Origin: Saururus chinensis
Taxonomy: Eukaryota > Streptophyta > Magnoliopsida > Piperales > Saururaceae
Assembly (NCBI GenBank): GCA_035235625.1
Contig: CP141150.1
Location: 32,566,756 to 32,630,755, forward strand
Reading direction: 5' to 3'
DNA: 64,000 nt
Shown here: positions 26,043-28,047 of the stretch, one piece after another
Layout of the letters: every line of letters begins with the position of its first letter
Position numbering within the stretch: position 1 is the first letter of the stretch
Notes under the pieces: generated by a model
Database searches by the model: none
What the model was told of the DNA's origin: nothing
Seen by the model: only the letters and a program-made list of their open reading frames with translations
Made by a program: the position numbers and the translations under genes

Positions 26043-26224
26043 TTCCATACATGTGTTTAGCTCGTCTCGATAGATAAAAGCTTAATGTACTATTATGTAT
26101 ATTATTTTTTTAAATATAAATATAGATATATTATACATTATCTATATATATCACATCACATAAAATTTAACTCATTTTATAAAATATACTCCCTCGGTCT
26201 TATTTTAATAGCTCCATTTTTATT

Positions 26225-26680
26225 TTTTACCATTTTTATCAAGACGGTAATCACAACCGTCTAACAATATTTCTGGCACGCGACCGTCGCCCTCCCAGCT
26301 TCTGTCATGGAAATATGGGATCGATGAGCACAACTCACACGAGCCCAAGCCCGTCCCCCACTCCCCATCTTTTAGCCCTGATCCTCAGCCCTCCCTCCCT
26401 CCCTCAATGGCGGTTGGTCGAAGACTCTTGACGATCATTCATTGCCACCACACCTCTCCAGCCCAGGCTCTCCTCCCTTTTCACCACCACGGCATCTGTA
26501 GCCGCAACCGACTCCGAGCACCCGGCGAGGAATGAGGAGTGGTGAGATCTCCCTCCTGCCTAGACTATTATTACGTCGGACCTCTTGTTCACCATGACGG
26601 TGGAGATCTCCAATGACATGGAGGTTGAAGACAAGTCGACAACGTCATCAACGGAGACGAAGGGCGACTCTAAGGGCCTA
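26225..26680. other. Unassigned GC-rich part of the Stowaway-type element
   Basis: Between the left terminus and the RuvB-like fragment lie about 450 bp of GC-rich DNA. A short plus-strand frame begins at the ATG at 26594. It may be a third captured segment, such as a 5' UTR or first exon. I cannot identify it. Confidence 0.3.
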
Positions 26681-26683
26681 AGT

Positions 26684-27235
26684 GCACCTTCTCCCGGCCA
26701 AGCGCCTCGATGAGCTTTGACCCCAGATCGTACACCGTCTCCATGTCCGTCGTCTTGAGGGTGAGCTTCCCGGTCTTGGCCGCAACGCCAGAAGCTGCGA
26801 GGCGGTCGATCTGGACCTCCACCACCTCCCCTTCGATGACCTCGGCCTCCTTCTTGATGCGGACACCGATGGACTTGCGAAAGGCCTGGGTGAGGGCCTC
26901 GGTCTTGGACATCTCGAGCGAGAATAGCTCGCTGCCGGCGAGCATGGTGAAGGGGGTCTCCGCGCCGAGAGACTTGGCGAGCCCCATGGCGATGGCGGTC
27001 TTGCCGGTACCAGGCTGACCGGCCAGAAGGACAGCGCGGCCGGCGATACGACCTTCGCGATCATATGGAGGATGATGCCTGCGGCCTTGCGGGCGGGGAG
27101 CTGGCCGACCATGCCCTTGGACGTGGCGCGGGGCTCCAGGGAGGAGTCAAGGCCCAGGCCACGAATGTGGGAGTGGGCGCAGATGCGCTCGATGCGGGTC
27201 AGGTCCCTCGCCTCAGACATCCTTAGCTCCACCAT
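26684..27235 (-). pseudogene. Captured fragment of a RuvB-like 2 (TIP49b/Reptin) helicase gene
   Basis: The minus strand starts like the N-terminus of RuvBL AAA+ ATPases, which act in chromatin remodelling and snoRNP assembly: [20 protein letters not shown], then [14 protein letters not shown] one-base frameshift follows near 27062. The other frame continues with the Walker A motif GQPGTGKT, then [20 protein letters not shown] and [18 protein letters not shown], ending near ALGREKV. About 190 codons of the N-terminal half are present, intron-free. Walker B, sensor motifs and the C-terminus are missing, so it cannot encode a working enzyme. Confidence 0.9.
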
Positions 27236-27253
27236 GGCCGCTCCCTCTCAAAA

Positions 27254-27612
27254 TACTGCCCGGACATGGTGCCCATGTACAAGGCCAGCCCCTAGAAGGC
27301 AGATGTAACGTATGGTGGGTACTCAGATTTCATGGTGGTGCATGAGGACTATGTGATCCGCATCCCGGACGGCATGCCGTTTGACGGTGCTGCGCCGCTG
27401 CTCTGCGCGGGGATCACCGTGTACAGCCCTATAAAGTACTATGGGCTCTGTGAGCCAGGGGAACACATTGGCATCGCCGGCCTTGGTGGGCTGGGGCATG
27501 TCTCCGTGAAGTTTGCCAAGGCGTTTGGGATGAGGGTGATAGTGATCAGCACTTCTCCGGGCAAGCGGAAGGAGGTGATTGAGAGACTCGGTGCTGACTC
27601 GTTCCTGGGACT
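27254..27612 (+). pseudogene. Captured fragment of a cinnamyl alcohol dehydrogenase (CAD)-like gene
   Basis: The plus frame opens as YCPDMVPMYKASP, hits an in-frame stop TAG at 27293-27295, and continues as VTYGGYSDFMVV (from 27305). It then reads LLCAGITVYSP, YYGLCEPG, the nucleotide-binding GLGGLGHVSVKFAKAFG and ERLGADSFL. This is the mid-region of plant CAD/mannitol-dehydrogenase-type zinc alcohol dehydrogenases (cofactor-binding Rossmann fold). The catalytic N-terminal domain and the C-terminus are absent. It lies less than 20 bp from the RuvB-like fragment, in the opposite orientation. Confidence 0.9.
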
Positions 27613-28047
27613 CGGAGCAAATTAAAACTAAGAAAAGCATCGTAGACTCGTTTACATTTAAATTGTTTCAAATAAAATAATTAAAATATAATAATATATT
27701 TTTTTTAATAGAGCTATTAAAATAGGACGGAGGGAGTATCATTTTTACATTTTTCAAGTACAACTATCTTAAGCCTTTTTGTTAGAAAATATATATAATA
27801 TATCATAAGATTTAAAATATTTTTTATAAACCTTACTCCCTCTATTTTATATTAATATTTTAAATTATAAAACTAAAATTAACTAAAGCTAGTTATTTAG
27901 TTTTATAATAATCCTCGCATTGGACCACTTTTTGACTATATTTATATAAATAATTTTTCTTATAAAACATTTGGGTCACAAGGTAAAGTAGCTCTATTTG
28001 TAATAGATTCGAGCTCAAACTTAAACTTAAAATTAAACGGAAACTTA

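Follow-up and report, generated by a model that had tools for sequence, protein, structure and literature searches.

A probable Pack-Mariner of Saururus chinensis carries pieces of at least four host genes and has sister elements that differ in inner cargo

Stowaway MITEs are short, AT-rich and gene-free elements with CTCCCTCC-type ends and a TA target, MULEs duplicate about 9 bp of their target site, and Helitrons carry mosaics of fragments from several loci, with no terminal inverted repeats (TIRs) and no target-site duplication. Mosaics of fragments from several loci are also described for Pack-MULEs in the accessible text of a study of rice Pack-Mariners (Gisby and Catoni 2022, PMC8903248), which reports several donor loci for 19% of the latter and presents a model in which newer DNA lies more internally. 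For animal Pack-TIRs, the available sections of another study (PMC8277862, Nat Commun 2021) propose gap-filling and FoSTeST models with template switching guided by microhomology of 1-36 bp (median 2); the cases include FB4, annotated as TcMariner, and 59.8% of the cases analysed came from the same chromosome. The mechanism for the capture of unlinked genes is left open in the available part of a 2026 review (PMC13317346). As judged by titles and the beginnings of abstracts, our literature search, outside of which most subscription journals lay, listed no further plant study in which mariner elements capture DNA by template switching, and within the same range of sources the term 'pack-mariner' was found in PMC8903248 only.

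Here, we analysed a stretch of 64,000 bp from Saururus chinensis (the window), placed at C11:32566756-32630755 of a 516-Mb assembly of 11 contigs, which was the genome searched throughout. Positions 26189-27736 of the window are one transposon of 1548 bp, with the ends CTCCCTC...GAGGGAG and a TA on either side. The Stowaway-like termini and TA target that an earlier note had read from the letters alone were found as described, and the coordinates given there proved exact. The features of the element, in window positions, are:

26187-26188, no strand: TA, left copy of the target-site duplication; a single TA stands at this point in the tandem paralogue (L075) and in 5 of 6 fetched paralogous empty sites
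26189-26218, plus: 5' TIR; 27 of 30 bases match the opposite end
26189-26293, plus: mariner-type 5' end; the outer ~58 bp appear, by eye, to be conserved across the family
26325-26543, plus: ATP12 piece (mitochondrial ATPase assembly factor); DNA just upstream of the start codon and the start of exon 1
26544-26591, plus: 48-bp filler with no donor assigned; common to the sisters on C5, C9 and C10
26592-26689, plus: GRAS N-terminal piece; donor C2:43330958-43331888 (minus), 88.3% identity (91/103 aligned columns)
26683-26689, plus: TGCACCT, 7-bp microhomology at the GRAS/RVB2 join; P ~0.001 against a random join
26683-27252, minus: RVB2 (RuvB-like 2) exon-1 piece that begins just ahead of the start codon and runs through Walker A; 96% to the donor (548/571)
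27251-27622, plus: CAD/sinapyl-alcohol-dehydrogenase-like exon piece; donor C9:37780250-37780632, 93% (356/383 columns, with an 8-base gap)
27612-27622, plus: TCGGAGCAAAT, microhomology of 11 bp shared by the CAD donor and the mariner 3' end, the mariner side being read from the C9 sister and not from an ancestor; P ~0.0002 against a random join
27612-27736, plus: mariner-type 3' end; ~105 bp appear, by eye, to be conserved across the family
27707-27736, minus: 3' TIR; 30 bp identical, in inverted orientation, to the 5' end of L068, a mariner-like element of 3.6 kb on C11
27737-27738, no strand: TA, right copy of the target-site duplication

The TIRs are of the mariner/Stowaway type, and similar ends occur at other loci. 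Their inverted match of 27/30 was unique among all 62,453 window segments of 1548 bp, the runner-up reaching 23, and the 5' TIR is part of a 41-nt inverted pair (85% complementary, flank included). GC content is 56% in the element, 27% in the 1 kb to its left and 43% in the 1 kb to its right. The element resembles Stowaway MITEs in the type of its ends, in its TA target and in the occurrence of such ends at many places, and differs from them in its length, its GC content and its gene cargo. Like Pack-MULEs and Helitrons it is a mosaic of pieces from several loci; its ends and 2-bp TA duplication set it apart from both, and a Pack-MULE was rejected on the length of the duplication. None of the eight places in the genome that matched DUF7769, a domain which we take to mark plant mariner transposases and which was the only model used here, lies inside the element. 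With the Pack-Mariners, as far as the available text describes them (PMC8903248), it shares mariner-type TIRs, a TA duplication and captured coding DNA. We regard it as probably a non-autonomous transposon of the mariner superfamily, best filed as a Pack-Mariner and built stepwise.

The cargo comprises pieces of at least four genes (ATP12, GRAS, RVB2 and a CAD-like gene), where the earlier note had described the capture of two unrelated genes by one Stowaway/mariner element; the single transposon stood, and the count rose with the ATP12 and GRAS pieces that had been missed. The pieces were copied from host genes that are still present on four other contigs, RVB2 on C3, CAD on C9, GRAS on C2 and ATP12 on C6, and they consist of exon DNA or DNA just upstream of the start codon. 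The candidate ATP12 donor, at C6:733302, is 85.3% identical to its piece (180/211 aligned columns), and its ORF matches PF07542 (E 3.4e-16). The GRAS donor has 490 codons free of stops, in a frame that is still open where the fetched locus ends and that matches GRAS at E 1.6e-83; beside this Pfam-assigned family, it is presumably NSP2-like. The RuvB-like 2 helicase fragment recognised earlier on the minus strand, with a Walker A motif and one frameshift, was confirmed by a TIP49 match (E 5.7e-48), by a PDB search that ranks RuvB-like 2 above RuvB-like 1 and by the 1-base gap against the donor that makes up the frameshift; GQPGTGKT, which we take to be the Walker A motif, lies in the reading frame. 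Its donor gene on C3 carries PF06068 matches at 6183724-6184440 and 6179470-6179817 (positions 1-240 and 232-347 of PF06068), corresponding to two exons. The CAD-like fragment on the plus strand, also recognised earlier together with its one in-frame stop, finds its best PDB match in sinapyl alcohol dehydrogenase (E 1.8e-47), and its single in-frame TAG stands where the donor has the codon CGG. The search for parental RuvBL2 and CAD genes that had been suggested as a check thus recovered both, on C3 (96%) and on C9 (93%), the exons of the latter being traced in part. The two fragments, which had been placed within 20 bp of each other, are close indeed and in fact directly adjacent, with a 2-bp overlap.

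RVB2 exon pieces also occur in other repeats with partly shared flanks on C1-C8 (twelve loci, L015-L021, L023 and L025-L028), five of which (L019, L020, L023, L027 and L028) lack the same ~105-base stretch. These pieces probably go back to a separate event in which mobile DNA captured RVB2; a search of the 12 loci for an exact CACTA-type end pattern gave no match. Another repeat as the source of the RVB2 piece was considered and rejected: the twelve loci are 82-91% identical to the C3 gene, compared with 96% for the element, so that the C3 gene is the better donor.

The capture of two genes by such short ends had been thought unusual, a view that did not hold, as the rice work has already described plant mariner elements with pieces of several genes (PMC8903248). 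Multi-gene capture by mariner elements is not new; the series of sister elements adds interest. Relative to the Pack-Mariners, the present element differs in having four named donors and a filler within 1.5 kb and in belonging to an in-genome series in which the left cargo is retained and the inner cargo exchanged. Sisters on C5, C9 and C10 have the same 5' end, ATP12 piece, 48-bp filler and GRAS sequence as the element on C11, and their inner cargo differs. The flanks of these copies are unlike, with no similarity at E 1e-5 among the 8 flanks compared, so that they are separate insertions. The C5 sister (C5:9239192-9240691, 1500 bp, TA on both sides) continues from the same 5' end, ATP12 piece and filler into a longer GRAS piece. 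In the C10 sister, the 5' end, ATP12, filler and ~100 bp of GRAS are followed first by a P450 fragment, 93-94% identical to C8:21707415, and then by a fragment of a PPCK-like kinase, 80.5% identical to C3:41007489. Pfam assigned the kinase, P450 and GRAS families (the P450 hit, E 0.0033, being below its cut-off), the name PPCK is our own presumption, and no 3' end of this sister could be located within the 7-kb locus. The C9 sister (C9:25368-40765) matches the C10 form at 91.7% over 738 columns and measures 15.4 kb owing to a copia-type retrotransposon inside, without which it is 1500 bp long. At C8:36077346, a 5' end is followed by a longer ATP12 piece with no GRAS match, and a worn 3' end lies 10.7 kb away.

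Over the sequence held in common, the C9 sister is the one closest to the element (92.5% in ATP12 and 94.0% in filler plus GRAS). Identity to the donors is 85-88% for ATP12 and GRAS versus about 95-96% for RVB2 and CAD, so the cargo at the 5' end is more diverged than the inner cargo, matching the more internal position of newer cargo in the Pack-Mariner model as given in the text available (PMC8903248). The identity of RVB2 and CAD to their donors is somewhat higher than that of the element to the C9 sister, which fits capture of these two pieces last, although donor identity is not a clock, as donors are under selection and the element decays. The C9 and C10 sisters and the element exit GRAS at nearly the same spot (GTGCACCT), and this fits an exchange of inner cargo in a common ancestor.

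That the two ends belong to two separate MITEs, flanking gene fragments brought in by another route, had been named as the case against a single element. Stowaway-type ends are frequent in this genome, and of the thirty 3'-end loci fetched (one being the element itself), 13 of the 29 others have no 5' end within the ~1.5 kb fetched upstream. At 16 of the 29, however, a 5' end lies upstream in the same orientation, compared with 0/29 in the downstream control. Fifteen of the 16 paired loci measure 848-1386 bp, L048 reaching the edge of its locus, and 13 have TA on both sides (not so L042 and L058; the left side of L048 is unreadable). Judged by this pairing, the two ends form one family, and the other copies with the same ends that the earlier note had advised looking for are found at these 16 loci. 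Moreover, flanks without the whole 1548-bp unit are continuous across the junction, at 74-80% identity, in 38/38 other places among the matches listed, including a tandem paralogue (of 364 candidates, 40 were scored, two of which were the window's own halves). The element therefore stands as one unit, and two separate MITEs are so improbable an explanation that it can practically be dismissed.

Scored in the same manner, with 40 of 304 candidates, the only full-length RVB2-CAD copy was the element itself. For 11 of the 16 paired loci, a single ORF per locus was selected and compared with Pfam, giving hits at E <=0.01 in five (L033, L035, L039, L053 and L056, the last below the curated cut-off) and no hit in the other 6. 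Donors were traced for two of the 11: the cargo of L039 corresponds to an LRR gene region of C7 (87%), and L050 has two donors, described below. Four loci (L044, L045, L047 and L052) have the same ends, measure 1.05 kb and are 89-99% alike; this subfamily appears to be a family member that has multiplied, and the one ORF scanned, from L044, had no Pfam hit.

Six of the 38 places were fetched and aligned as empty sites. All six are without the element, and the point of insertion shows TA in five and TT in L072. The tandem paralogue of the gene region, L075, which lies 8 kb left of the window and belongs to the 38 places, aligns with window 24556-26188 and picks up again directly at the right flank (...TATAAAATATA followed directly by TCATTTT...). 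The lack of the element in this paralogue points to an entry after the tandem duplication, or at least to absence from the other copy. An empty site inside the window was also sought in the gene copy at 43-48 kb and rejected, as that copy does not align across the insertion point, whereas the copy left of the window does. The tandem gene copies, with an AMP-binding domain that was checked at 28276-28668 only, lie at window 17647-20086, 28047-30647 and 45415-48103 and at L075 2516-5044, and the second of them has its predicted start ~0.7 kb beyond the element. Just left of the insertion, at window 25929-26038, a 55-bp unit is repeated head to tail (two copies, 98% alike), and L075 is shorter at this point. 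About 100 bp to the right, a Stowaway-like motif, ACTCCCTC, lies in a host repeat (window 27835-27870 and L069-L074); since it occurs with variants in the fetched empty sites, the insertion target is itself a repeat.

Besides the 7-bp and 11-bp microhomologies, we compared further joins. RVB2 and CAD share 2 bp (AA; P ~0.17 against random joins of the same donors), and in the C10 sister GRAS and P450 share 1 bp and P450 and PPCK 0 bp. A two-donor element on C4 (L050), composed from a MAX2-like gene on C5 and an open frame on C3 with no Pfam hit, has its donors joined at 4 shared bp (P 0.025). At the 0.05 level, three of the six joins share more than expected by chance and the other three do not; the Fisher value is 1.5e-5 for all six and 0.003 without the 11-bp join, for joins that were taken as encountered and not as a preset sample. 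Microhomology at the joins of this family is not universal. We read the joins, with moderate confidence, as the outcome of repair with template switching, a mechanism put forward for animal Pack-TIRs in the sections available (PMC8277862). The likeness to that system lies in template switching at microhomology as a means of capture by TIR elements; the difference is that here the host is a plant and the donors are several and lie on other contigs.

The published Pack-TYPE model would instead explain the cargo by fusion of neighbouring insertions, in which two related elements land close to each other, their outer ends act together and the DNA between them becomes cargo. Its basis is data from rice and maize, a Pack-Mariner cluster among them, as far as the available text describes them (PMC8903248). 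At the C6 ATP12 gene, a Stowaway-like end lies ~190 bp left of the homologous stretch (L024 2059-2110 versus 2303), so ATP12 could itself have been taken by fusion. Against this model, the donors of RVB2 and CAD lie on different contigs, each piece derives from the inside or the edge of a single exon, and the two pieces abut with a 2-bp overlap that leaves no room for a TIR remnant; the joins here are direct, two of them with microhomology, in contrast to the fused neighbouring elements described there. Because two of the three tested joins of the element share 7 and 11 bp, template-switching repair is favoured over fusion, which we consider unlikely for the element as a whole.

In template-switching repair, a break or an excision would come at the start, and repair synthesis would begin in the element's own left part. 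Synthesis would then switch to foreign templates at short shared sequences, from GRAS to RVB2 at TGCACCT and from RVB2 to CAD at AA, and would return to the mariner 3' end at TCGGAGCAAAT, with the result that the inner cargo is replaced and the left cargo kept. The transposase of a related mariner may move, or may once have moved, such elements. Tentatively, the whole family could be seen as a natural time series of the capture of unlinked genes by copying from one end, template jumps at short shared sequences and return at the other end, in which end-proximal cargo is inherited and inner cargo replaced; this is a possibility that we hold with some doubt. If true, it would provide a route for unlinked capture of the kind for which the 2026 review, in its available part, allows an 'alternative, yet undiscovered mechanism' (PMC13317346). 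Donors, joins, sisters and empty sites are all readable in one genome, so models of capture can be tested join by join.

The captured fragments are decaying pseudogene pieces. With the direction of change assumed, C-to-T or G-to-A accounts for 23/40 of the donor differences in RVB2 plus CAD and for 75/96 in the C5 GRAS piece. By context, C-to-T was counted at CG 14/175, CHG 4/122 and CHH 5/307 in RVB2 plus CAD, and at CG 46/165, CHG 17/127 and CHH 12/269 in the C5 GRAS piece. The change is commonest at CG, which suggests methylated DNA, as expected of methylated transposons. In the RVB2 piece, nonsynonymous changes against the donor are scarce (9/22, P 0.001 against neutral), a shortage that can come from the donor's own branch and is no evidence of function; selection on the fragment was set aside as an explanation, since these counts cannot tell constraint acting on the fragment from that acting on the donor. 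An effect of the element on its donors or on the downstream gene, through antisense or small RNA from the RVB2, CAD, ATP12 and GRAS pieces or through promoter DNA, would be helped by the opposed fragments with 93-96% identity to their donors and by the position upstream of an AMP-binding-domain ORF whose predicted start is ~0.7 kb to the right. Since RVB2 is frameshifted and CAD carries a stop, we consider such an effect very unlikely.

A candidate for a transposase-bearing relative of the family is L068, the 3.6-kb element on C11, which has family sequence at its 5' end and a DUF7769 match (E 3.4e-8); it is degenerate and without a long frame. Of the eight DUF7769 places in the genome, six loci were fetched, and family ends were absent in five of them (L063-L067) within the 5-5.5 kb fetched for each, a span beyond which ends would be missed. 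One of these, at C11:21957197-21958624 (L063 1698-3125, minus strand), holds an open frame of 476 aa with a DUF7769 match, no family ends in its 5.5 kb and a weak Tc3-type HTH hit (E 0.00076, below cut-off), and this frame is a candidate for another mariner family or for a host-retained gene.
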